Of a DNA stretch of 64,000 nt, positions 23,556 to 38,984 are shown piece by piece. The notes below the pieces were generated by a model. That model was given only the letters and a program-made list of their open reading frames with translations, was not told where the DNA came from and did not search any database. Origin of the DNA: Acetivibrio alkalicellulosi (lineage in GTDB: Bacteria; Bacillota; Clostridia; Acetivibrionales; Acetivibrionaceae); contig VLTH01000001.1 in the NCBI GenBank assembly GCA_008125075.1, positions 842,671 through 906,670 on the forward strand, in the 5' to 3' direction. A program made the position numbers and the translations under genes. Each line of letters opens with the position of its first letter. The first letter of the stretch is position 1.

Positions 23556-23777
23556 ATGAACCTTGAAAATATAATTACAGATGTTGAACAATTACCACTT
23601 TCTCTTACAGTTAGTGATATTTCACGTATTTTGAGAATTGGAAAACAGAATGCTTATGACTTATGTCATTCTAAAGGTTTTCCTTCTGTGCAAATTGGAA
23701 AAAGGATTATAGTGCCTAAACCAGCTTTTATTGAGTGGTTAAATAATCCTAACAAATTTGATAAAATAGGAGCGTGA
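23556..23777 (+). CDS. Excisionase family DNA-binding protein
   Basis: A 73-residue MerR-like HTH protein with SLTVSDISRILRIGKQNAYD and the wing FPSVQIGKRIIVPKPAFIEWL, as in Xis proteins. ATG 23556 is chosen because GGAGG lies 8 bases before it; an ATG at 23541 contains that site. Its stop overlaps the integrase region, so the two genes are co-transcribed. It probably directs excision by bending DNA at the att sites. Confidence 0.88.
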   Translation: MNLENIITDVEQLPLSLTVSDISRILRIGKQNAYDLCHSKGFPSVQIGKRIIVPKPAFIEWLNNPNKFDKIGA

Positions 23778-23782
23778 AATAT

Positions 23783-24916
23783 ATGGCTAAAAGAGGTAAT
23801 GGAGAAGGAACAATAGTAAAAAGAAAAGATGGTAGGTGGATGGGAAGTATTACAACTGGAAGGGATATTACTGGAAAGCAAAAAAGAAAAAGTGTTTATG
23901 GTAAAACCAAAAAAGAAGTACAAGAAAAACTAAACAAAATATCAATGGAAGTATATCAAGAAAGCTATATAGAACCATCTACAATTACACTATATACATG
24001 GTTAGAAAATTGGTTAAAAAATTATAAAGCAATATCTTTGAAACCTGCTACATATGATTTGTATGAAACATTAATTGAAACTGTAATAAAGCAAGAAATA
24101 GGACATATAAAATTAAAAGATATCAAACCTATACATATTCAGGCTTTTTATAATAAATTATTTGACGATGGTAAAGGATACGCAACTTCCACTATTCAGA
24201 AAGTTAATAATATACTAAATCCTGCATTTAAAATAGCGATAAAAAACGAACTTATAAGGATTAATCCTGTTGATTCTGTGGAAATGCCTAAACATAAAGA
24301 AAGACAAGTCAGAGCTTTAACAATGGAAGAGCAAATAATATTTTTAGAAGCAGCAAAAAATAATTGGTATTATTCTGCTTTTGTTATTGCTTTAGATACT
24401 GGGTTAAGATGTGGAGAATTATTGGCATTAGAATGGGATGATATAGACCTAAAAAATAGTGAAATTAAAGTTTATAAAAATATTGTTGCAGTTAAAGATA
24501 GAGATTGTAAAGAGTCAAAACAAAAAATAGTAGTTCAAACAAGTCCTAAGACCGCTAAAAGTGTTAGAACAATACCATTAACACAAAGAGCCACAAGTAC
24601 ACTTAAAGAATTAAAACTAAAACAACAAAGTTTAAGTAATATTGTTGTTTGCACTAAAAATGGTACACATGTTTTTCCTAAGAATTTACGAAGAACATTT
24701 CAATGTATTTTAAAGAATGCAAACATTGAAAAACTAGGATTACATGTGTTAAGACATACATATGCTACAAGATTATTTGAAGCAGGTGCAAACCCTAAAA
24801 CAGTATCGGAACTATTAGGACATACTAATGTAAGCATAACATTAGATACTTACACCCATGTTTTACCACATCAAAAGAAAGAAACAGTAAAATTACTTGA
24901 CACATTAAGTATATAG
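23783..24916 (+). CDS. Site-specific tyrosine integrase (Tn916/phage type)
   Basis: A 377-residue integrase. An AP2-like arm-binding domain lies at ~1-55 (GEGTIVKRKDGRWMGSITTG), a core-binding SAM-like domain at ~60-160, and the catalytic domain at ~170-370 with Arg in DTGLRCGELLALEW, HVLRHTYATRL (H-x-x-R), LGHTNVSITLDTYTHV (His and nucleophile Tyr). ATG 23783 is chosen over GTG 23774 because TAGGAG lies 10 bases before the ATG and only 1 before the GTG. It lies 200 bp from attR at tRNA-Pro and should catalyse integration there. Confidence 0.95.
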   Translation: MAKRGNGEGTIVKRKDGRWMGSITTGRDITGKQKRKSVYGKTKKEVQEKLNKISMEVYQESYIEPSTITLYTWLENWLKNYKAISLKPATYDLYETLIETVIKQEIGHIKLKDIKPIHIQAFYNKLFDDGKGYATSTIQKVNNILNPAFKIAIKNELIRINPVDSVEMPKHKERQVRALTMEEQIIFLEAAKNNWYYSAFVIALDTGLRCGELLALEWDDIDLKNSEIKVYKNIVAVKDRDCKESKQKIVVQTSPKTAKSVRTIPLTQRATSTLKELKLKQQSLSNIVVCTKNGTHVFPKNLRRTFQCILKNANIEKLGLHVLRHTYATRLFEAGANPKTVSELLGHTNVSITLDTYTHVLPHQKKETVKLLDTLSI

Positions 24917-25123: not shown

Positions 25124-25216
25124 TATTTACATCAAAAAAAAATTGTGCTATAATTAATATTCGTTATCGGGGTGTAGCTCAGCTTGGTATGAGTGCTTGC
25201 TTGGGGTGCAAGAGGT
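25124..25216. repeat. attR: right 93-bp direct repeat of element 1
   Basis: Identical to 15298-15390, including a run of nine A. It covers the promoter and the first 49 nt of the intact tRNA-Pro gene. Confidence 0.95.
25126..25154 (+). promoter_or_regulatory. tRNA-Pro promoter
   Basis: TTTACA (25126-25131), 17-bp spacer, TATAAT (25149-25154). It is duplicated exactly in attL. Confidence 0.8.
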
Positions 25217-25245
25217 CGCTGGTTCAAATCCAGTCACTCCGACCA
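25168..25245 (+). tRNA. tRNA-Pro (anticodon GGG)
   Basis: A 78-nt tRNA. Acceptor CGGGGTG pairs with CACTCCG; anticodon arm CTTGC-TTGGGGT-GCAAG gives anticodon GGG; T arm is CTGG-TTCAAAT-CCAG; CCA is encoded (25243-25245). It is the target of element 1, which restored the whole gene at its right end. Confidence 0.95.
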
Positions 25246-27402: not shown

Positions 27403-27477
27403 ATGAATTAGTACTTTTGGATTTTTCACGTAGACTATTGGCCTTAAGTGAAATTATAGCCCAAGTTGGGGTTGTAA

Positions 27478-27569
27478 GCCCAAAGCTACGCATTTTCTGA
27501 AAATGTTTAAATATGGTAAGTTTAGAAAAACGAACGTTGGTTTCCGAGACGGTGGGTAGGTTTGTGTAC
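27478..27569 (+). repeat. Left terminal inverted repeat of the composite
   Basis: Starts GGGGTTGTAAGCCCAAAGC. Its reverse complement is at 38785-38876. The ends proper of Tn3 elements are ~38 bp; the longer match shows that the two ends are recent duplicates. Confidence 0.85.
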
Positions 27570-27585
27570 ATTACGAACGACTCTT

Positions 27586-27933
27586 TTATTTTTTATATGC
27601 GGTTAATGTATAGGCTTCTAAATTCATTACTACTTTACACGCTGTTAGTAAATCAAGTCCAATAATAGCATCTAATTCGATACCATAATTCATAGTACCG
27701 ACCTGAATATCAAAATTTGTTGCCGCAATATTATCAAGGCTTATGGCATCTATTTTCTTTTCAACAACAGACTCTGAGCCTCCAATTCCTAAACTATGAG
27801 CAATATCTCTTGAAATTACTGTAGCGGATGATCCAGTATCAACTAAAGCATTTTTGATTGTAATACTACTGATTCCATGAATCAGGGTAGCATCTACATA
27901 TATCAATCCATCTTTTAAACTAATATTTATCAT
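27586..27933 (-). CDS. Retropepsin-like aspartyl protease family protein
   Basis: A 115-residue clan AA aspartic protease-like protein. The active-site motif is LVDTGSSATVI (Asp about residue 31), with a family-like second motif IIGLDLL near the end. A functional enzyme would be a dimer, as in retropepsins. ATG 27933 is used, 8 bases after GGGGGTG; the GTG seven codons earlier would include that site. It sits just inside the left transposon end. A 3'-deleted copy is at 38600. Substrate is unknown. Confidence 0.85.
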   Translation of the reverse strand: MINISLKDGLIYVDATLIHGISSITIKNALVDTGSSATVISRDIAHSLGIGGSESVVEKKIDAISLDNIAATNFDIQVGTMNYGIELDAIIGLDLLTACKVVMNLEAYTLTAYKK

Positions 27934-27969
27934 TATAGCCGCACCCCCAGCCACTTTTTAATGCCTATA

Positions 27970-28300
27970 TTTATAATCTTAATGCATTAGCGTAGTTAAC
28001 TATTTGAGCGTACTGCTGTCTTATAAGTTCCCAGTTTATTGTTCTTGTTAGTACTAGCTTTAAATTAGAGAACATATCTAAAATACCTGTATCAGGACGA
28101 TATAATTTCTGTTTCCCAATGTTTTTAAACGTGGTATTAAGTTAAATCCTAATAGATGACAAAATGGAAAGGTAATTTCACTTTTTCCGTGAGTGTCTAC
28201 ATAGTTACTTTCTATTTCCATATCAGTACAATGTTTCAGAAGCCCCTCGATCATTGATGCTACTTCGGGTGATGAACAAGAACTTCCTGTCATAGAAAAC
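27970..28300 (-). pseudogene. Tn3-family transposase C-terminal remnant, frameshifted
   Basis: Minus strand: [21 protein letters not shown] then [20 protein letters not shown] are typical Tn3 TnpA. After PRLK a one-base shift leads to [40 protein letters not shown] and a stop near 27975. The sequence differs from the tnpA at 35084, so it comes from another Tn3 subgroup. Everything upstream of it is lost. Confidence 0.85.
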
Positions 28301-28642
28301 GGGAATTCTGCAAACGGATTTATCTTTTACGGAAAAGGTGTTATCCCAACTTATCTATACATATGGAAATTTTGATCTTAATATGGATGAAAGAATCTCA
28401 ATAGATAATTTCATTATTTAACACTTGCTCTGCCCCTGTTGACACGGACGCTCCCACTAAACCTTATTCACATAAAAACTCACAAAAAGTGTAACACATA
28501 ACTTAACTATTTAATAAAATAAATAATAACTTAATTATTCATATAAGAAAAAAATATAAACTTAATTGTATTTTTTAAAAGGTTTAATTGTAATTTTTAA
28601 AATGTAAGAAGTGAATTTGACAAAATAAAAGGAGTGAACATT
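28301..28642. other. 340-bp gap before the SPOCS cluster
   Basis: The first ~100 bp look like further debris (no open frame, possible transposase relic). The rest is AT-rich, with repeated AATTGTANTTTTTAAAA just before the first SPOCS gene. No clear promoter could be fixed. Confidence 0.5.
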
Positions 28643-29203
28643 ATGAAGTCTAATACTAGCGGGTGTAATTGTGATAGTGCCTTAATAGATATTATAGGCC
28701 TTTGTAATCCTAGCAACATTACTGAAGTCATAAACAACTACCCTTATTGGAAACAAATGTATATATCAGAAAAACTAACGATTCCATCAAATAAACCAGA
28801 TATTGAACAAATAAACTCTGTAGATATTTCTGTTAGTATTATTAGAAAAAAAGTTATTAAAACACCTACTATTCCGATCCCAAACATTGAAGGAAAGCTT
28901 TTGAGTGGAAGAAAACTTATAATTGAAGGTCAACTATGTCAAAAAATAGTTTATACTGCCGATATTCCAGATCAACCTGTACACTCTGTACACTTTTATG
29001 TCCCCTTTTCTTCTTTTATTGTAGTTCCAGAAGAAGTAACCTTTGAAGTGCAAAATGGTCAAGATATAACTCGTGATTCTCTGGATGTCAATTATGAAGT
29101 AAACTCATGCGTAGAAGATGTTTCAGCTTGCATATTAGATAATAGAAGCATTTTGAAGCAAGTAACACTATTATTATATGCAGTACCTACACAAAATTGT
29201 TAA
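28643..29203 (+). CDS. SPOCS/DUF3794 domain protein 1
   Basis: A 186-residue protein with a Cys-rich start (MKSNTSGCNCDSALI). One SPOCS (DUF3794) domain fills ~35-185: SEKLTIPSNKPDIEQI, then KTPTIPIPNIEGKLLSGRKL, VHSVHFYVPFSSFIVV and the end VEDVSACILDNRSILKQVTL. SPOCS domains occur in spore coat/cortex proteins such as SipL. AAAGGAG lies just before; a GTG at 28634 would overlap it, so ATG 28643 is used. First of a three-gene run with two relatives directly after. Probably made in sporulation. Confidence 0.85.
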   Translation: MKSNTSGCNCDSALIDIIGLCNPSNITEVINNYPYWKQMYISEKLTIPSNKPDIEQINSVDISVSIIRKKVIKTPTIPIPNIEGKLLSGRKLIIEGQLCQKIVYTADIPDQPVHSVHFYVPFSSFIVVPEEVTFEVQNGQDITRDSLDVNYEVNSCVEDVSACILDNRSILKQVTLLLYAVPTQNC

Positions 29204-29224
29204 GTAAAGGAAGGAGTGAAATAT

Positions 29225-29821
29225 ATGTATAGTTGTAATTATACTAATAATACTGAATATCAATTCAATAATGAGTGCTGTAATACAAGTGAAAATATAA
29301 ATTTGGTAGGTGTATATCCTCAAAATAAGCTTGAAAATGTATTGCAATGCAACCCTATTACCAATAAATGGGTTCAGTTTTATGTTAGCGAAATTGTAGA
29401 CATACCAGAACAAAAACCAGATATAGAAGGAATAGTTGGAGTTAATTCATGTGTAGAAATCATATCACAAAGAGTTATAAAAACTCCTGAAGTAACAGGC
29501 TATACAACAAATGATGGAACATTTATTCCTGGCAACACAATTTCAAATTCTGAGTGCACAAATTTGACAGGAAGGAAACTTGTTATTGAGGGGTTATTAA
29601 ATCAAAAGATAATATACACTGCACTAGTTGATAATCAGGCATTGCATTCAGCTTCATTTACAATACCATTTTCTGTTTTTATAATAATTGATAAAAACAC
29701 ACCATTGTCTCAAACATTTAAATTGTATTCTTATATAGAAGATATCTTTGCATGTCAATTATCTGAAAGAAGCGTTTTCAAGAATACAACATTGTTTATC
29801 AAAGCATCTCCTGTATGCTAA
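29225..29821 (+). CDS. SPOCS/DUF3794 domain protein 2
   Basis: A 198-residue paralogue of the previous protein, 21 bp after it. Its N-terminus has Cys pairs and Asn/Tyr-rich sequence; the SPOCS core has SEIVDIPEQKPDIEGIVG, RVIKTPEVTGYTTNDG, NLTGRKLVIEGLLNQKIIYT and ALHSASFTIPFSVFIII, ending YIEDIFACQLSERSVFKNTT. ATG 29225 lies 7 bases after AAGGAG; the GTG at 29216 overlaps that site. Likely a spore-surface or coat component. Confidence 0.85.
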   Translation: MYSCNYTNNTEYQFNNECCNTSENINLVGVYPQNKLENVLQCNPITNKWVQFYVSEIVDIPEQKPDIEGIVGVNSCVEIISQRVIKTPEVTGYTTNDGTFIPGNTISNSECTNLTGRKLVIEGLLNQKIIYTALVDNQALHSASFTIPFSVFIIIDKNTPLSQTFKLYSYIEDIFACQLSERSVFKNTTLFIKASPVC

Positions 29822-29870
29822 TTTATGAATAAAAAGTTAATAAAATATTATTTAGAAAGAAGGGAATACT

Positions 29871-31022
29871 ATGTCATGCCAAAAACAACCTAATTGCTGT
29901 AATTGTAATTTTAATATTAAATGCTTTGGAACAGCGGATTTAGCAAGAATTAGAATAGATGGTGAAGACAGAACAGAACTTAACTGGAATGAAATCTCAG
30001 TTCCTGAGATATTAACAGTACCTATACAAAAACCGGATATTGAAAGTATTGATCAGGTGCATGTTGATGTACAATTAAATTGTGTAAAGCTAATTGAAAC
30101 TCCTTTTGCTTACAAGGTTTATGATAGGTTGGCTACTGCTTACGAAATAACAGCAGCTACTGATGCTATTAATCTCGCTGTTGTAGATATTACCCCTATT
30201 GTAGATGCAGTTAATGCAATTCTTGCGATTCCTGGGTTGCCAGTTATACCTGAAGTTGCAGAACTCCAAGTAGCTCTTGATGCAGTTATTGCAGCTGACG
30301 CAAATCTTACTACCGCTATTACAAATGCTCTTGCAGTACTTGCAGGTACTTGTGTTTCAGCGTCCGCTATTTTATCGGCACTCCAAAGTGTTTCAGCAGC
30401 TATAGTAGTTTTACAAACAGCTCTTAACTTGCTTTTAGCCGCAGCCAACGCTTTAGCAACTGCAACAGCTGGAATTCCAATTGTTGGTCCTGCAGTAGCG
30501 GCAGCAGTGGCAGTTCTTGCAGCAGCTATAGATGCAGTTGTTGTACTACTTGTTACAGCTTTGCAATCAATTGCAGGCGCAATTACCTTAATAGGAGATA
30601 CAAGTTATTTTGCTATAATTCCTAATGAAGAAGGCACTTGTCTTAGTGGGAGAAAAATAATCGTAGAAGGAGTTTTAACACAGAAAGTTGTTTATACTGG
30701 TTTAGTAAATACTCAATCAGTTCATTCTGCTTGCTTCAAAGTGCCTTTTTCTACGTATATAATACCATATGCAAAATTTGTTGGCCTGGAATATGAGGAA
30801 AACGTAGAAGTTATATTAGATCCTGACACTGTTCCATGTACTACAACTACAATAAACGGATTTGCATTCAATCCTAATGATCCCATAAATGTGGATTTGT
30901 GTGAGGAATTCTGTGTAGATGCATATATTGAAGATATATTTGCACACATGCTAGATGTAAGAACAATATTCAAAAATGTAACATTATTCTTGCAAGCTAA
31001 ACCATCAACTGTTTGTGATTAA
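29871..31022 (+). CDS. SPOCS/DUF3794 protein 3 with a large Ala/Val-rich insertion
   Basis: A 383-residue protein. Residues 1-80 and ~256-383 make one SPOCS domain (SVPEILTVPIQKPDIESI; CLSGRKIIVEGVLTQKVVYT; YIEDIFAHMLDVRTIFKNVT). It is split by a ~150-residue insert (about 92-242) of Ala, Val, Leu and Ile with helix-like periodicity (ALDAVIAADANLTTAITNAL; GIPIVGPAVAAAVAVLAAAI). The insert falls between the KTP-type strand and the LSGRK strand of its paralogues. Its DNA (30144-30596) is visibly more GC-rich. The N-terminus has CCNCNFNIKC. Ribosome site AGAAGGG precedes ATG 29871. Confidence 0.85.
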   Translation: MSCQKQPNCCNCNFNIKCFGTADLARIRIDGEDRTELNWNEISVPEILTVPIQKPDIESIDQVHVDVQLNCVKLIETPFAYKVYDRLATAYEITAATDAINLAVVDITPIVDAVNAILAIPGLPVIPEVAELQVALDAVIAADANLTTAITNALAVLAGTCVSASAILSALQSVSAAIVVLQTALNLLLAAANALATATAGIPIVGPAVAAAVAVLAAAIDAVVVLLVTALQSIAGAITLIGDTSYFAIIPNEEGTCLSGRKIIVEGVLTQKVVYTGLVNTQSVHSACFKVPFSTYIIPYAKFVGLEYEENVEVILDPDTVPCTTTTINGFAFNPNDPINVDLCEEFCVDAYIEDIFAHMLDVRTIFKNVTLFLQAKPSTVCD

Positions 31023-31529
31023 ACAATGCAATTTTTTAATTTGTATATTTATTCATTAGTGTTGCATAATAGAATTTAGCAATAGGGGGTTGTAGGCACA
31101 AAGCAACCAAGTTTTTAATTTTTCTACTAAACACCATTTTATTATTGATATTACCTAAACTGTCAATATAGGCTCTATGACTTTGTATGTAATGTGTAAG
31201 TAAATACCGAACTCAACTTTATTCTTACACTATTTAAATTCAAATTTGACGTCAATTTAAAGTATACTTCAACCTTACACAATGTTATTATATGGGAAAA
31301 GCAAAAATAAGGAGGGGTTGTGGCTAGGACCCCCAATAGGCAAAATTAATATTGATTCAACAATAAGTTTTGTGGTATATTGATAATTCCATAAAGTACC
31401 TTGGCAAAGTTTTGGTAAAAAGGGCACAAAAAAATCCAATACACCGTTTATTCTGAAATACACGACTAAAACAGAAAGAAGGAGGATGTAGTCAACTTGC
31501 CTCAAAAGATGGCCTGAGTAGGTAAGGGC
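31023..31529. other. Gap between SPOCS genes, IS debris
   Basis: Contains a sequence close to the transposon end, GGGGTTGTAGGCACAAAGC (31086-31104), and downstream sequence without an open frame that leads into an ISL3-type remnant. No gene is called. Confidence 0.5.
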
Positions 31530-32067
31530 TGAGGTTGAAGCAGTATCCATGGATATGAGCCGTAGTTACTGTAAATATATCCTCTTCTGTTTTCCCAATG
31601 CTAAACCGGTTATCGACCTTTCATTTGGCACAAAACTTTTACAAGTGTGTGGATGATGCAAGGAAACACATTCAAAATCATATACTTAAACATGGCAAAA
31701 AGGAAGAAGTATTTAAAATACGTTGGGCTCTTTTAAAACATGTAGAAGACCTTAAAAGAGAAGAGGCTGTTTGTTGACTCTGGCTTGTATCAAGTACCCT
31801 GTGATCGAGAATCTGCACTATCTCAAAGAAGAATTCAGAGAGTTCTTCAACCTCGAAACCAAACAGGAAGCAATTGTTTTTGTTGAATATTTCAAAGACC
31901 TTGTTGCAGAATACAATATACCAGAACTAAAAATGTTCTGTAAGACCCTGGATAATTGGCTACCGTATATCCTTAACTACTATGATTACGGTATATCCAA
32001 CGGGCTTACCGAGGGTAATAATCATAAGGTAAAACATAAAAAGAAGGGGTTACGGATACAGGAATGA
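31530..32067 (+). pseudogene. ISL3-family transposase remnant with frameshifts
   Basis: Three pieces in different frames match the ISL3 DDE transposase in order: VEAVSMDMSRSYCKYI, then FHLAQNFYKCVDDARKHIQN, then YLKEEFREFFNLETKQEAIV through NWLPYILNYYDYGISNGLTE. Frame changes fall near 31618 and 31771. The N-terminal zinc region is missing. It separates SPOCS genes 3 and 4. Confidence 0.8.
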
Positions 32068-32430
32068 TAGTAATTTATTTGATTACCTGATTTATCCCCA
32101 AATGGATAACCTGTGTTGCATAGGATGTGGTAGGAATCTCAGGAAAACCTGTATTTTGAACTCCGTTGAATCTTAATATTTATTTGTAAGAAAAACTCTT
32201 TTGCTAATATTAGCAACTGCCAAACCACTTCATTAAATAGCAAAGGATCCGCACAGCCTAATGCTGTAAATATTGCTTTTGATATTATATGTAATACAAT
32301 TAGGTTTTTAATGCTAACATAACTTTGCTAACCTTGGAAGAGAGTCTGATATATTACTGGTAAACAATTTACAATTAGCACCTAGTCATTTGTGCAGAAC
32401 TTAGGTAGTTTATCTAAAGGAGAATTTTGT
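32068..32430. other. 360-bp gap after the IS remnant
   Basis: No open frame or hairpin of note is seen. It is followed by AAAGGAG before the next SPOCS-type gene. Confidence 0.4.
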
Positions 32431-33180
32431 ATGACCTGTATTAAAAATAATAGTAATCAGATACTAGAGCCGTGTAAATTAATTAGTGATAGTTTAAACT
32501 TACCAACTCCTACTGAACTAGTTTGGGTACAAATACCTAAAATATTCGATCATATTTATACTAGAGGCTGTATAAAAAAAACTATTCAACTAAGCGGATG
32601 CCCTGTAAAGCGTTCTTCACAATTTTCTTTTAAAGGTATTTCTAACTATGATATTTTTGATATTAAAATAGTATCAGATATAGATTTGTTAAAAAAGCCT
32701 GGCTTTAAAAAAATTAATTTAAATATACTTATGAAATTCAATATAAACTTTTTAAATGGAGATATACTCTTTTCAAAACGTGAAGAAGTTGAATTCTCTA
32801 TCATAGTAGATGAAATTTATTGTCCCTCTAGTATAGTAGAACCATGCTTATTAAAGTTTTCTAAAAGTGTATTTTCTAAAACCAATGAAAATTATAAAAT
32901 GAATGAAACATATATAGATGTAGAAGCAATACCGGAACTAATGGATAGTACTCTCCACCCTGAAAAAGGAATTCTTTATCTTGAAATTGGTGCTTTTTTC
33001 ATTATAGATACTTATAATATAGTTAGATTATTAATTCCTTCGTATGGGCACTATGCTTTAATGTCTGAAAAAAACTATGAAAACAGTTCTGAGTTTTCAA
33101 AATTCTATGATAAAGAAAAATACCCCTTCCCTACAAGGATTTTTCCTTTATCAAAAAAAATACCATTTATTTATCGATAA
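32431..33180 (+). CDS. Divergent DUF3794-type spore protein 4
   Basis: A 249-residue protein. It shares the DUF3794-like layout: VWVQIPKIFDHIYTRGCIKK at the N-terminus, INLNILMKFNINFLNGDILF, then REEVEFSIIVDEIYCP, but the classic IPxxKPDIE and GRKLVIEG motifs are absent. A C-terminal ~60 residues (LLIPSYGHYALMSEKNYE) is extra. ATG 32431 lies 8 bases after AAAGGAG; a GTG at 32392 has no site. Its place inside the SPOCS cluster supports a related role. Confidence 0.65.
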   Translation: MTCIKNNSNQILEPCKLISDSLNLPTPTELVWVQIPKIFDHIYTRGCIKKTIQLSGCPVKRSSQFSFKGISNYDIFDIKIVSDIDLLKKPGFKKINLNILMKFNINFLNGDILFSKREEVEFSIIVDEIYCPSSIVEPCLLKFSKSVFSKTNENYKMNETYIDVEAIPELMDSTLHPEKGILYLEIGAFFIIDTYNIVRLLIPSYGHYALMSEKNYENSSEFSKFYDKEKYPFPTRIFPLSKKIPFIYR

Positions 33181-33342
33181 ATATTTTGAAAAAACAGGTA
33201 GTATTTTAGTACTATCGGTTTATGGAATTATTATTATATGATACAAATGAATTACTTTTTTTAAAATATAAACATCTGGAATTAAACAGTAAATTTTTTA
33301 TAAAATGGTTACATAATACCACTATATAAAGGAGTTTTAGAA

Positions 33343-34062
33343 ATGATTAATAATATAGAGATTTTAGGAATAACCCCTTATAATTTTTACCCAAAATGTC
33401 CTTCAAATTTTCCATCAAGTCAAATGTGTGAAACCGATAAACTGCATATACCTGCACAAAAACCTCCAATTGAGTCTATTTTACAAATAAAGGTATGTAT
33501 TTCTGTCTGCTCTCATAATGTGATTTGTACCCCCAAAGGAAAAAAACTTGTTATTGAAGGAATTAAGCATATAAAAATTATGTATGTTGCTGACGAACCA
33601 TGTCAATCAGTTCACTCAGCTCATTTTGATATTCCTTTTTGTATGTTTGTTTTATTAAAAGGTTACAACTGTGAAGTAACTGATGTATTTACAGCTATTG
33701 AAGATATTAAAGTAAATCAGCTTGGTCCAAGGTGTTTCTCAATATCCATAATAGTCTTTGCAGCTCCAAAAATAAAAAAGTCTTCTAATAATTTTGAAGA
33801 TAGCAAGTATTTCTCTGATGATTGGCTTGATGAAGGTTACTACGAATGCAATAATTATAGTAAAAATTCACTTAAAAACTGTTATGATAATAATCCAAAG
33901 GAAGTTTCTCACTCTAATGATAATTGCACTATTAATGTAAGCACAAGTGTAGATGTATCAGGCTTTCATTCTAATAAACATAAAAAAAATAATAGTTCAA
34001 ATACAAATTATCATGCGTGCAATTACTGTAAAAATAAAAACGATTGTAAATACTGTAAATGA
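33343..34062 (+). CDS. SPOCS/DUF3794 domain protein 5 with Cys/Asn-rich tail
   Basis: A 239-residue protein. Residues ~30-145 are a compact SPOCS domain (KLHIPAQKPPIESILQIKVC; CTPKGKKLVIEGIKHIKIMY; VHSAHFDIPFCMFVLL). Residues ~146-239 are an Asn/Ser/Tyr-rich tail ending in HACNYCKNKNDCKYCK, a cluster of closely spaced Cys. Such tails could cross-link by disulfides or bind metal in a spore layer (inference). AAGGAG lies before ATG 33343. Confidence 0.8.
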   Translation: MINNIEILGITPYNFYPKCPSNFPSSQMCETDKLHIPAQKPPIESILQIKVCISVCSHNVICTPKGKKLVIEGIKHIKIMYVADEPCQSVHSAHFDIPFCMFVLLKGYNCEVTDVFTAIEDIKVNQLGPRCFSISIIVFAAPKIKKSSNNFEDSKYFSDDWLDEGYYECNNYSKNSLKNCYDNNPKEVSHSNDNCTINVSTSVDVSGFHSNKHKKNNSSNTNYHACNYCKNKNDCKYCK

Positions 34063-34090
34063 ATTAATTATTGTTTTTGTCTCTGGTATA

Positions 34091-34235
34091 GGAAAAAGAA
34101 AATCTCCACTCAAAAAGACTTTGGAAGAACTGGATGAATACCTATCAAGGATCAAGAAATATAATAAGCATCTGCATGTTATCGGTGATAGAAATAGCTA
34201 TTGAAAGACAGGCCCTGATAATTCTTATGGTATTA
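34091..34235 (+). pseudogene. IS1182-type transposase fragment
   Basis: A short frame GKRKSPLKKTLEELDEYLSR continuing to NKHLHVIGDRNSY, then TGA and TGPDNS, resembles the catalytic region of IS1182-family transposases (usually RNSYSKTDPDATF). Only ~45 residues remain, cut by a transposon end at 34237. Confidence 0.6.
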
Positions 34236-34236
34236 A

Positions 34237-34274
34237 GGGGTTCTAAGCCCAAAGCACCGTATTTTCTAAGTATG
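34237..34274 (+). repeat. Inner Tn3-type terminal repeat
   Basis: GGGGTTCTAAGCCCAAAGC then ACCGTATTTTCT, close to the outer end. Homology to the outer end resumes at 34330-34363 (AAACGTTCGTTTTTGAGACAGTG). It precedes the resolvase and points the same way as the left outer end. Bases before it are ATTAA, which do not match AAGTT at the right end. Confidence 0.75.
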
Positions 34275-34390
34275 GTTAATAATAGCAAATGGTGGTATTA
34301 TTGCCTTTTGAAATTCCTATACGCTTAGTAAAATAAACGTTCGTTTTTGAGACAGTGAGTAGCGCAAAAAATCCAAATACAGAACACATC

Positions 34391-34480
34391 AAAAACTGTA
34401 TCAATATCCGTATCAAAAACAAAGTAAAATAAATTGAATGTATTATTGAATTTTGATACAATTACCTTATCAAATATCGG
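34391..34480. promoter_or_regulatory. Candidate resolvase (res) site
   Basis: Repeated TATCAA-type subsites in both directions: TGTATCAATATCCGTATCAA (34397-34416) and TTGATACAATTACCTTATCAA (34453-34473), then ATATCGGATA, just before tnpR. This layout suits a serine-resolvase site and promoter, by inference. Confidence 0.55.
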
Positions 34481-34495
34481 ATAGGGTGATTGTTT

Positions 34496-35047
34496 ATGCT
34501 CATAGGCTATGCAAGAGTTTCAACTCAGGATCAGAATGTTGACTTGCAGAAAGATAAACTTACTAAAGCTGGTTGTGAGAAAATATTTTATGATGTTGCT
34601 AGTGGAGCAAAACCAGAACGCACAGGCTTAAAGGATGCAATTGAATATATGCGTGAAGGAGACATTCTTGTCGTTTGGAAATTAGACAGGCTAGGGCGTT
34701 CGTTGAAACATTTAATAGAGGTTGTTTCAGAACTTGAAAAAGGTAAAATAGGCTTTAAAAGCTTGCGAGAAAACATAGATACAACATCATCAGGTGGAAG
34801 ACTTATTTTTCATGTATTTGGTGCATTGGCTGAATTTGAAAGAGAAATTATAAGAGAACGGACAAATGCCGGTTTATCGGCAGCGCGATCCAGAGGAAAA
34901 AAAGGTGGTAGACCTAAGTCTATGGATTCTAAAAAAATAACTATGGCAAAAGCTTTATTCTATGATAAAAAAAATTCAATTAAAGATATATGTGAAACCT
35001 TAAAGGTTTCAAAACCTACATTATATAGATATTTAAATTCATTTTAG
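34496..35047 (+). CDS. tnpR: Tn3-family serine resolvase
   Basis: A 183-residue serine recombinase. IGYARVSTQDQNVDLQ holds the catalytic Ser (Ser9); VVWKLDRLGRSLKHL, FEREIIRERTNAGL and a C-terminal HTH (DICETLKVSKPTLYRYL) complete the family. It should resolve cointegrates at the res site upstream. ATG 34496 is used; a TTG at 34490 has poor spacing to GGGTG. tnpA follows after 36 bp. Confidence 0.93.
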   Translation: MLIGYARVSTQDQNVDLQKDKLTKAGCEKIFYDVASGAKPERTGLKDAIEYMREGDILVVWKLDRLGRSLKHLIEVVSELEKGKIGFKSLRENIDTTSSGGRLIFHVFGALAEFEREIIRERTNAGLSAARSRGKKGGRPKSMDSKKITMAKALFYDKKNSIKDICETLKVSKPTLYRYLNSF

Positions 35048-35083
35048 GTTAAAAAACAAAATGAGAAAGAAAAGGAAGTTTCA

Positions 35084-38000
35084 ATGGGAGTTAGATTAGC
35101 AATTTTGTCAGAAGAAGAAAAATTTGCGCTATATGGTATTCCTGACTTTGATGAATTACAACAGCATGAATATCTTGCTTTAACAAAAGATGAACAAAAA
35201 TTAGTATTTTCACGCTCTAATTTGTCTTCTCAATTTTATTGTGCTTTACAAATTGGATATTTTAAAGCCAAACAAATGTTTTTTCATTTTGATTGGAATG
35301 AAATTTCACAAGAAGATATTGATTTTTTGATGAAGTAACATTTTTCAGCTCAACAATTTTCCCTTGAACCTATTACAAAACATGAGTATTATGATCAAAT
35401 CAAGCTGATTTCAGCTCTTTATGGTTATAAGCTGTGGTCAAAAAGCTTTACTGAGCAGTTGTATAACTATGTAGTCAAAGCATCCAAGCGAGATATCAGT
35501 ACAGGATTTATTCTGACAGAATTGTTACAGTTTCTTCGTAACGAAAAAATTGTTCGTCCTGGTTATACTGTTTTGCAAGACATTATTAGTAAAGCAATTA
35601 ATTCGGAAAGTGAACGCTTAGGTAATATTATAACAAATTCATTGGATGATGAATCAAAAAAAGCAATTGATCAGCTCCTTGTTCGGGATGATGTATTGTC
35701 CTATCTCTCGATTATTAAGCAAGATTCCAAAGACTTTGGATATAGAGTAATGAAGATTGAACGGCATAAATTAGAGACAATTAAACCCCTATATATTTTA
35801 GTGAAAAAACTGATGCCGAAATTTGATATTTCAAGGTATAATTTGCTTTATTATGCTGACTTAATCAACTATTATACTGTCTATGATTTGCGACGATTCA
35901 AAACTAACCGCTCTTATCTGTATTTGCTTTGTTATATTTGGCAACGTTACCTTCAGCTGACGGACAATCTAATAAATGCTTTTGGATACCACTTAAAACA
36001 ATTTGACGAAGAAACCAGGGAAACTGCTGAAGAAGGTTTTACAAAACATGCACGACATCAACAGGGACAATCAGCAACGATTGGCAAGTTACTCCAACTG
36101 TACGTTGATAAAAATGTTAGTGACAGCACTACTTTTGGTGAGATTAGGCAAAAGCATGTATTTTCATTGATGCCGGAAGATGCTTTAAGGAATACAGCCA
36201 ATCAAATGATACAAAAGCCAATAACTGAACTCTCCTTAAAATGGAAAGCTGTTGACACTATAGGGCATAAATTCAAAAAGCATTTATGGGCTATATTTAT
36301 GACTTTTGACTTTGCCACATCTAGCTCTAATAGTCTTTGGTTAACAGCAATTGAGCAGCTTAAACAGGATTTATTAAAACAAAAAAGTCTTAAAAATGCT
36401 ATTAATGTTGAGTATTATATTGCAACTATTCCAAAGAAGTTAAAACAGCATCTGACATTTACTAATTCAGAAGGCAACATTACCGGATTACAATCTAACC
36501 GTTATGAATATTGGTTATATAGACAAATTATGAAGCGTTTAGAATCTGGTGAGCTATATATAGACGACAGTATTAATCACCGTTATTTTGAGCACGAATT
36601 AGTTCCCATGATTGATGATGAAGCAATACTCCAACAGTTTAACTTACCATGTCTACTCAAACCAATTACTGAACAAATCGAAGAATTATATACTGAGCTT
36701 AAAACTCACTGGATATTATTTGATGAAATGTTAAAAAGGAAAGATTCAGAACATATTCAATATGATGTTCAAAATAAGACCATTTCCTTTCACAAGCCTA
36801 AAATAGAGCAAAAAGAGGAAGATTTACAGGATAGCTTTTATCAAAAATTATCAATGGTTGATAATATAGATGTTCTCAGGTTTGTTAATGAAAAATGTGC
36901 TTTTTTATCAGCATTTAGTCCTTTACAATCTAATTATGTAAAACAAAAAGCTGATGAAGATGTACTTCTTGCTGTTATTATTTCTCAAGCTATGAATCAC
37001 GGAAGATTAAAGCTATCAAAGATAAGTGATATACCTTACTACAGTTTAAATTATGCTTACCAGCAGTATTTTCGCAAAAATACGCTTCAGGAGGCAAATG
37101 ATATAATAAGCAATGCCATTTCAAAATTACCTATTTATAATAATTATTCTTTTGATTTATCAAATCTTTATGGAAGTGTAGATGGTCAAAAGTATGGTGT
37201 AGATCATCCAACAACCAAAGCACGTTATTCTAAAAAGTACTTTGGAAAAGGAAAGGGTGTGGTTGCATATACTTTGCTTGTTAATCACATTCCATTACAG
37301 GGGGAACTTATAGGAGCACACGAGCATGAGAGCTATTATGTCTTTGATGTTTTTTATAATAATACAACTGATATTGTACCAAACGCAATTACAGGCGATA
37401 TGCATAGTATCAATAAAGCCAATTTCATTATTTTGCACTGGTTTAAAACCGATTTCAGACCACGGTTTACTGATTTAGAAACACAGTTAAAGCATCTTTA
37501 TTGTGGAGATGAAGTTTCTAACTATCAAGACTTCTGGATAAAACCTGTTTGTCAGATTGACCGTAATTTAATAATTGAAGAATGGCCTAAAATAAAGCAA
37601 ATTATTTTGACTCTTGCAAATAAAGAAACTACTCAAAGTAAAATTATCAAAAAGCTTTGCACCTATAAGCAAAACCGGATATTAAAGGCTATATTTGAGT
37701 TTGATAAATTGAAACGAAGCACCTATACTTTAAAATATTTAAGTGACTATAAATTACAGCAAAATGTGCATCGCTCTCAGAACCGTATTGAATCATACCA
37801 TCAACTACGTGCAGCCATCTCACAGGTAAATGGGAGGAAACAGTTATCTGGTAAGACTGATTTAGAAGTAGAAATTGCTAATCAATGCGGTCGATTAGTT
37901 GCAAATGCTATTATTTATTACAACTCTGTAATATTATCAATATTACTTGAAAAGTATCAGAAAAATGGTAATCAAGAAGCTCTAGAAAAACTACTTAAAA

Positions 38001-38116
38001 TTTCTCCTGTAGCTTGGCAACATATACATTTGTCGGGGCAGTATACCTTTAGTAGTAATAAAAAAACTATTAACTTAGATGAACTACTTTGTGCATTTGA
38101 ATTAGGGCTATACTAA
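35084..38116 (+). pseudogene. tnpA: Tn3-family transposase TnpA with an in-frame stop
   Basis: The frame encodes ~1010 residues, full length for Tn3 TnpA. ILSEEEKFALYGIPDFDELQ starts it and it ends WQHIHLSGQYTFSSNKKTIN. The DDE region is intact (LYGSVDGQKYGVDHPTTKAR; HEHESYYVFDVFYNNTTDIV; RSQNRIESYHQLR). A single TAA at 35336-35338 interrupts it after DIDFLMK; the frame is the same on both sides. The 885-residue downstream part could start at TTG 35459. Either inactive or needing readthrough. Confidence 0.88.
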
Positions 38117-38342
38117 TAATAATAAAAAGATAAGATATAATAATTTGTATGTTTGTTTTTCATATTTACCATTTACAGGTGAATCTGATGCAGTTGCAAG
38201 TATATAGATTAAAAAGTGAAAAGTAAAGCTATTTGCGATATTTATAAGAGGAAACAGAATTCCGTAAGGTAGCCATGTTGATAGTAGATAATATTTGGAA
38301 ATAGTTTATTATAAAAAGCAATTTAAAAAGGAGGTAAATTTT

Positions 38343-38600
38343 ATGAATTGGGAAAATGTAAGAAAAACTTATCCACAGCAGTGGGTACTGATAGAAGTCA
38401 TAAATGCTAAGACAGAAGGAGATAAAAGGATTGTTGAAAACATGGATGTCATTGCTAGTTTTGCAGATGATGGTGATGGTGCTTTCCAAAAATATATTGA
38501 ACTGCACAAGGTTCATAAGGAAAGAGAGTACTATATTTATCATACTTCAAACGATATCTTAAATCTAGGCATTAAAAAGTGGCTGGGGGTGCGGCTATAA
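38343..38600 (+). CDS. Small acidic protein coupled to the retropepsin-like gene
   Basis: An 85-residue protein, MNWENVRKTYPQQWVLIEVI onward. AAGGAGG lies 8 bases before ATG 38343. Its stop TAA shares a base with the protease start (TAATG at 38598-38602), so translation is coupled. No named domain is recognised. The pairing suggests a partner of the protease. In the left-end protease copy only the last ~20 bp of this gene remain. Confidence 0.7.
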   Translation: MNWENVRKTYPQQWVLIEVINAKTEGDKRIVENMDVIASFADDGDGAFQKYIELHKVHKEREYYIYHTSNDILNLGIKKWLGVRL

Positions 38601-38911
38601 TGATAAATATTAGTTTAAAAGATGGATTGATATATGTAGATGCTACCCTGATTCATGGAATCAGTAGTATTAAAATCAAAAATACTTTAGTTGATACTGG
38701 ATCATCCGCTACAGTAATTTCAAGAGATATTGCTCATAGTTTAGGAATTGGAGGCTCAGAGTCTGTTGTTGAAAAGAAAATAGATTACCCACCGTCTCGG
38801 AAACCAACGTTCGTTTTTCTAAACTTACCATATTTAAACATTTTCAGAAAATGCGTAGCTTTGGGCTTACAACCCCAAGTTATTTTTCAAAATCTCTTTG
38901 TATTTTATTGA
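38600..38911 (+). pseudogene. 3'-deleted copy of the retropepsin-like protease gene
   Basis: The first ~60 codons match the gene at 27586-27933 with two or three changes (IKIKNTLVDTGSSATV). After VVEKKID the sequence jumps to TACCCACCGTCTCGG, the downstream flank of the other copy, which deletes ~178 bp including the GLD region. The frame then reads through the transposon end to a stop at 38909-38911. It keeps the DTG motif but not the rest of the fold. Confidence 0.85.
38785..38876 (-). repeat. Right terminal inverted repeat of the composite
   Basis: Reverse complement of 27478-27569; it ends in CCCC at 38873-38876, followed by the target duplicate AAGTT. Confidence 0.85.
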
Positions 38912-38984
38912 ATAATAAATCTTTAATAAACCATAATATAACTGTAATACACTTAAAAACTAATTCCTTAAAGGAGTGAAGTGC

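Follow-up and report, generated by a model that had tools for sequence, protein, structure and literature searches.

Among the described systems, the closest to the locus considered here are those that contain the SPOCS domain (PF12673/DUF3794). The N-terminal SPOCS domain of SpoVID is reported to interact with CotE and SafA (PMC10867305), and the C. difficile SipL is described as combining three DUF3794 domains with a LysM domain (PMC6436350). The four paralogues O1 to O4, encoded in the window, i.e., the whole stretch of 64,000 nucleotides of Acetivibrio alkalicellulosi DNA that was analysed, belong to the same domain family as SipL and SpoVID and share their motifs, but they differ from SipL in being single-domain proteins, one of which, O3, bears a large insert predicted to be helical.

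A second system is the appendage locus of C. taeniosporum, given as CRD1, HYPO1-3, CRD2, P29a, GP85, P29b and CL2 (PMC5749712). One of the genomes compared here, G428, contains nine genes of the same kinds in the same order (L061, 2338-11609), and the six lengths printed for C. taeniosporum agree with those of G428 within 8 residues (printed/G428: CRD1 564/556, HYPO2 158/166, HYPO3 160/160, CRD2 413/413, P29a 269/269, P29b 269/268). This likeness, drawn from gene order, kind and printed lengths rather than from the C. taeniosporum sequences, has its exceptions: the P29-like pair is 48% identical in G428 versus a reported 87% in C. taeniosporum (PMC5749712), and the longer collagen run lies in the last gene in G428 but in the first in C. 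taeniosporum. In Pfam, the G428 counterparts of HYPO2, HYPO3 and CRD2 match SPOCS, HYPO3 with 20.0 bits being under the cut-off, and that of CRD1 gives no SPOCS match at E<=0.01; all four match a profile built from short SPOCS paralogues. Therefore, short SPOCS proteins belong to the C. taeniosporum-type locus, at least as represented in G428. The name 'SipL' is absent from the main text of PMC5749712, and the paper was not retrieved under DUF3794 or SPOCS domain. Compared to that locus, which combines DUF11 and collagen-like genes in one cluster, the window cluster has neither of the two as neighbours and possesses the insert.

Finally, a parallel can be drawn with the Ena fibres of Bacillus cereus, which consist of DUF3992 proteins. 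Pfam-A holds a DUF3992 model, and O3 shows no match to it at E<=1, PF12673 being the only Pfam family that it matches at this threshold. Ena and O3 are both beta proteins of spore-surface type with N-terminal cysteines, those of Ena making disulphides between subunits (PMC8619143), and the parallel is one of analogy only.

The four SPOCS paralogues of the window lie within 5.5 kb (Table 1) and account for four of the nine SPOCS matches in the source genome, the others being three in a SipL-like protein of 525 aa and two on contig 3. No relative of the ORF located between O3 and O4 was found among the ORFs of 20 loci. The sigma-K-like site preceding O1 departs at one position from the consensus given in PMC5749712; the + strand of the window has five matches of this kind in all, and no such site was found upstream of O1 in the five other insert-bearing loci.

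Table 1. Features of the SPOCS cluster and of the surrounding element, in window coordinates.
Feature	Position	Strand	Basis or flanking sequence
Left terminal inverted repeat (GGGGTTGTAAGCCC...) of Tn3-family element	27468..27558	+	AAGTT at 27463-27467
Second Tn3 transposase remnant, frameshifted, opposite orientation	27977..28293	-	PF01526, 1.5e-18 and 0.0011
Sigma-K-like site AC-N17-CATAACTTA upstream of O1, putative promoter	28478..28505	+	
O1, insert-free SPOCS paralogue, loop 10	28634..29203	+	Pfam, loop measurement, tree
O2, insert-free SPOCS paralogue, loop 24	29216..29821	+	Pfam, loop measurement, tree
O3, SPOCS-domain protein with predicted helical insert, 383 aa	29871..31022	+	ORF, Pfam SPOCS match, orthologues
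O3 N-terminal part: Cys-containing tail and first SPOCS strands	29871..30122	+	
O3 apolar insert as aligned, after AYKVY, through ...DTSYF	30123..30611	+	
O3 C-terminal part: remainder of SPOCS domain	30612..31022	+	
262-aa ORF between O3 and O4, without family match	32392..33180	+	
O4, fourth SPOCS paralogue, Cys/Asn-rich tail, loop absent	33343..34062	+	Pfam, tree, loop measurement
Resolvase of Tn3-family element	34490..35047	+	PF00239, 3.2e-45
Tn3 transposase, one in-frame stop near start	35084..38116	+	PF01526, 6.7e-102 on 885-aa open part
Right terminal inverted repeat of Tn3-family element	38786..38876	-	AAGTT at 38877-38881

The preliminary description of this DNA, made from its letters alone, had proposed that an Ala/Val-rich insertion of about 150 residues splits one SPOCS domain at a loop that is short in the paralogues. 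This insertion is real, and the segment first delimited (30144-30596) is its core: counted from 'AYKVY' to 'EEGTCL', it covers residues 85-252 of O3, i.e., 168 aa. In the alignment, the extra residues fall between 'LIETPF' and 'CLSGRKIIVEG', that is, between the strand ending in LIETPF and the strand starting with GRKIIVEG. The loop is indeed short elsewhere: in the tree set, where the script returned a length for 40 of 43 SPOCS rows, it measures at most 42 residues in all 34 rows without insert, and at most 26 in each of these except G458, compared to 178-215 residues in the six rows with insert. Since the insert splits the domain, the protein scan matches PF12673 only to residues 259-297 of O3, just below the cut-off (23.4 versus 23.6 bits). 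In the genome search, the same family reaches 27 bits on O3, above the cut-off; it matches all six insert-bearing orthologues, O3 included, at E<=0.1, and the short-SPOCS profile matches both halves of O3 on either side of the insert.

The composition first described as almost restricted to a few apolar residues was also borne out, the window insert being made of 72% A+V+L+I+T, with 27% Ala, one Lys/Arg and 11 Asp/Glu. As claimed, its DNA is richer in GC than the flanks (0.42 versus 0.33), but GC3 is lower in the insert (0.15 versus 0.19 in the flanks), so that the GC rise is attributed to the amino-acid composition, through the Ala codons, codon use does not look foreign, and a foreign origin deduced from GC was rejected. 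In the same line, the repeated ALxxAIxxA-like spacing is helix periodicity rather than DNA repetition, only two arrays of 22-23 bases scoring >=30. A candidate internal duplication, consisting of one 38-nt pair, 74% alike, was too weak to be claimed. Outside the insert, residues 300-344 form a second, smaller loop of low confidence in the model described below, and the cysteines C3, C10, C12, C257, C344 and C382 are invariant across the six orthologues, the first three being located in the N-terminal tail.

In AlphaFold2, the insert alone is modelled with a mean pLDDT of 91 and a pTM of 0.85, one of the five models being poor (65); the predicted helices span residues 2-24, 30-40, 49-80, 86-120 and 127-167 of the model. 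This model is derived from a single sequence, and AlphaFold2 is known to be generous to Ala-rich helices. A second run, on full-length O3 together with the three window paralogues, places closely similar helices (90-101, 108-118, 127-157, 164-199 and 205-242 in O3 numbering) between the SPOCS strands, within a weak overall model (mean pLDDT 69, pTM 0.47). The strands of this model, at 40-49, 57-75, 262-277, 284-297, 347-360 and 365-378 with ten-residue pLDDT means mostly of 66-85, would provide the beta-strand core expected of a SPOCS domain. The helical stalk proposed in the preliminary description is thereby half retained: the insert is helical in both runs, but it is predicted to form a compact antiparallel up-down helix bundle, not a stalk. 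With the insert model as query, Foldseek found no PDB match at E<=0.001, and the best VIA alignment (Z 14.6, rmsd 2.8, 164 residues) is to a designed four-helix bundle, which possibly just reflects a common arrangement. With the full-length model, the Foldseek and VIA matches concern the helical part or are of unclear kind.

A hydrophobic helix group of this kind could also be lipid-binding or membrane-inserting and fix a spore layer to a membrane, in line with the membrane hairpin initially suggested. The mean Kyte-Doolittle value of the window insert is 1.37, with 57 nineteen-residue windows above 1.6, and tetraspan membrane proteins occur among its fold matches; yet the chains best aligned by VIA are designed four-helix bundles, charged residues are present in four of the five predicted helices, and the summed insertion energy does not fall below zero over any 19 or 21 consecutive residues of the six orthologues, the minimum ranging from 0.01 in the window copy to +6.31 in G345 when calculated as a plain sum rather than with a trained predictor. 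The hairpin is not supported by these values, and a membrane role appears improbable. It is still less probable that the insert is the core of a self-assembling filament, in which helices would stack on helices into a fibre decorated by the SPOCS domains. Ala-rich, charge-poor helices would suit such tight packing, some relatives sit in appendage-type loci, and weak profile matches to coiled-coil and bundle proteins are seen, but the model shows a closed monomeric bundle and not an open repeat. As for the profile matches, those to a phage tape-measure family (PHROG 2854, E 0.00035 for the full-length protein and 0.00029 for the insert alone), to tape-measure, chemotaxis and other coiled-coil proteins of the PDB (best 3e-5) and to Baculo_PEP_C (four of six orthologues, best 0.00091) are spread over many unrelated helical proteins, and were therefore treated as compositional helix similarity and not as homology.

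When used alone as a single-sequence query, the insert looks unique, as it matches only itself among 58 genomes of the order and gives no match in plasmids or phages. Four further genomes out of 391 of the class matched the insert alone at E 0.0004-0.009, but these matches contain stops and were judged to be noise. Profile searches led to a different picture. The short-SPOCS profile gave matches in 83 of the 391 class genomes, mostly in SipL-looking frames of 510-620 residues, and exposed in G345 a frame of 403 residues whose domain is split at the same place. Among 71 genomes of the family of G345, seven matched, five of them at full length; among 297 genomes of its order, 12 matched at E<=1e-10, the full-length ones being the same five; and among 398 genomes of the phylum, four matched, only the window's own at full length. 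These counts are lower bounds, given that the genome draws overlap, that some omit known carriers and that scoring was limited to the top candidates of each genome. The O3 orthologues of five genomes of another order (G345, G437, G480, G470 and G441) carry a same-site insert of 190-205 residues and are encoded in the same O1-O2-O3 order as in the window. A profile of the insert itself matches this gene in six of eight genomes tested, namely all six carriers, with one additional weak match in G480 (E 3.4e-4) and none in G458 and G487. Judging from these alignments, the insert is not unique, since it occurs at the same site in another order. The preliminary description had asked whether many DUF3794 proteins with the same insert were already described: the insert recurs in five genomes, and no description of an insert in the SPOCS loop was found in literature screened by title and the start of the abstract, with most subscription journals outside the scope of this screening.

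The insert evolves much faster than the rest of O3. Compared to the window copy, the inserts of the five orthologues are 21-28% identical and their flanks 57-62%, and in the closest pair, G345/G437, identity amounts to 58% in the insert and 83% in the flanks. The dN/dS ratio, estimated by the Nei-Gojobori method on a MAFFT alignment that is uncertain within the insert, is about 0.79 for the insert (0.27/0.34) versus 0.20 for the flanks (0.09/0.45) in G345/G437, about 0.84 (0.53/0.63) versus 0.26 (0.14/0.53) in G470/G480, and about 0.63 (0.42/0.67) versus 0.31 (0.22/0.70) in G470/G441, pairs including the window copy being near saturation at synonymous sites. Besides, the Ala content of the inserts varies from 5% in G345 to 27% in the window, and the number of charged residues from 6 in G441 to 32 in G345, while all six are apolar, with a mean Kyte-Doolittle value of 0.71-1.37 over 168-205 aa. 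Across the six copies compared, the extreme Ala/Val richness peaks in the window genome and the apolar block is the common trait; by these estimates, the insert drifts near-neutrally while remaining apolar. Helicity, modelled for the window copy only, and apolarity appear to be what is kept, rather than exact residues.

Such rates would also be expected if the insert merely took up space, as a nearly neutral helical spacer or filler that arose once in a loop tolerant of additions and has persisted only because it folds harmlessly. An insert dN/dS of about 0.6-0.8 versus 0.2-0.3 in the flanks fits a dispensable segment, the loop varies in length among paralogues, and G458 does without the insert. 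Nevertheless, stops, charges or deletions should accumulate in a stretch free of constraint, whereas this one is open, apolar and 168-205 aa long in six genomes of two orders; a mere filler is consequently considered a rather doubtful explanation, if a less improbable one than a membrane or filament role. The O3-like gene of G458 (L099, 7955-8707), which has a 42-residue loop without helical insert and lies beside a DUF11 giant, is a natural insert-minus comparator. As G458 neighbours the insert clade on a very long branch, a gain of the insert after the split of G458 and its loss in G458 both fit the tree and cannot be told apart.

This tree was built from 43 hand-picked SPOCS rows with the insert left out, and does not include, among others, the two SPOCS genes of contig 3 (L025), O4 of G437, G441 and G560, and the genes of G428, G405, G207, G530 and G829. 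Within these 43 rows, O1, O2, O4 and O3 with insert each fall on one side of a branch, the support for O3 with insert being 96/85. The insert-free O3 of G487, G537, G550 and G560 lie outside the latter group, and that of G458 beside it. The window O4 groups with O4 of G487, G537 and G550, not with O4 of G345, G470 and G480, and the cluster may therefore be of mixed ancestry.

In several relatives, SPOCS clusters adjoin collagen-like or DUF11 genes. Collagen-like genes occur beside those of G441 and G487, as detected with Pfam, and of G537, G550 and G560, as detected by repeat pattern; none was seen in the ORFs printed beside the clusters of G345, G437, G470 and G480. DUF11 is fused to SPOCS or lies beside it in G428 and G458, and, as judged by visual inspection alone, in G530, G829 and G822; it is absent at E<=1e-5 from three of the six insert carriers. 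The ten ORFs scanned between 27 and 39 kb of the window include neither a collagen-like nor a DUF11 gene, the two DUF11 matches of the source genome being elsewhere. In G441, a Cys-rich protein of 380 aa without Pfam family (L098, 7661-8803), which has an apolar helix-like stretch, adjoins collagen-like genes. Four giant proteins of about 1210-2440 aa that end in a SPOCS-like domain were also observed (L062 5777-13090, L124 4864-19179, L125 3136-9789 and L126 2432-6073), which suggests that SPOCS may serve as the docking end of long surface fibres.

The window cluster is flanked by the two ends of an element of the Tn3 family. Members of this family make 5-bp target duplications. The GGGGTTGTAAGCCC end is present at 27468 and, inverted, at 38876, with the direct repeat AAGTT outward of each; the inverted repeats (96 + 226 nt, 99% alike, with 189 nt extra between the pieces of the left arm) bound the region 27463-38881. 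Terminal inverted repeats, a 5-bp duplication, a DDE transposase and a resolvase are all present, but the transposase is not intact. An ISL3 transposase fragment is also found inside the element, and the gerA germination operon lies just downstream, GerA starting at 38976. Elsewhere in the genome, the arm sequence has nothing but a 43-nt match at an inner copy, 34237. Internal copies of the GGGGTT-type end sequence were observed at 34237 (77-86% alike) and 31086 (79%), hinting at nested or composite elements. To the left of the transposon, a gene for a phage-type integrase adjoins one for tRNA-Pro (23774-24916 and 25168-25245), and two Band_7 genes come next; this is another possibly mobile stretch. 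The Tn3-family element probably brought the SPOCS module into this genome. As ends of the same sequence were not found in the ten relative loci scanned, a transfer between orders is plausible only. Tn1546 belongs to the Tn3 family as well. In Bacillus, it is reported to carry the spoVA2mob operon (PMC5133452), and thus shares with the window the presence of spore genes on a transposon; its cargo is a spoVA operon for heat resistance, whereas that of the window consists of surface-type proteins.

Taken together, these data are best explained, with moderate confidence, by a mobile module for spore-surface assembly whose third subunit, O3, displays a fast-evolving apolar helix-bundle head. This explanation is preferred because four paralogues are clustered, because five orthologues share both the insertion site and the gene order O1-O2-O3, because O3 with insert is set apart in the tree with a support of 96/85, and because the bundle model, the apolarity kept despite drift, the collagen and DUF11 context in relatives and the Tn3-family ends all agree with it. 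It is weakened by the window cluster being without collagen-like or DUF11 genes, by the sigma-K-like site being unshared, by the insert-free G458 and by the weak full-length model. The spore-surface location advanced in the preliminary description is supported by the domain family and by the context in relatives, as far as sequence comparison goes. More precisely, O3 would be the third subunit of a small spore-surface module of SPOCS paralogues. Its beta-rich SPOCS core would likely bind the sister subunits, which conserved cysteines may cross-link, and the insert, borne on a loop of this core, is predicted to fold on its own into an apolar bundle of antiparallel helices comprising about 160-200 residues. 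The hydrophobic head would most likely pack against its own copies or against another layer, and would thereby make the spore surface, or its appendages, assemble laterally. A bolder version, put forward tentatively and considered no likelier than the filler explanation, is that a spore-surface module, possibly one for appendages, travels on a transposon from one order of Clostridia to another. The insert would then be an undescribed kind of apolar helix-bundle domain, whose sequence could drift freely provided that helicity and apolarity are retained; as an all-purpose head packing on itself, it would enable foreign subunits to be incorporated into the spore surface of the recipient.

The short SPOCS/DUF3794 paralogues, a poorly described family, are hereby tied to appendage-type spore loci, and a bulky apolar domain seems able to sit in the SPOCS fold with a sequence drifting almost freely. 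The link of SPOCS to HYPO and CRD makes testable those genes of the appendage locus that were still 'hypothetical' in 2018. Besides, the window shows by example that genes of spore-surface type can lie between the ends of a transposon, an arrangement that would help to explain the patchy differences in spore surface among relatives.
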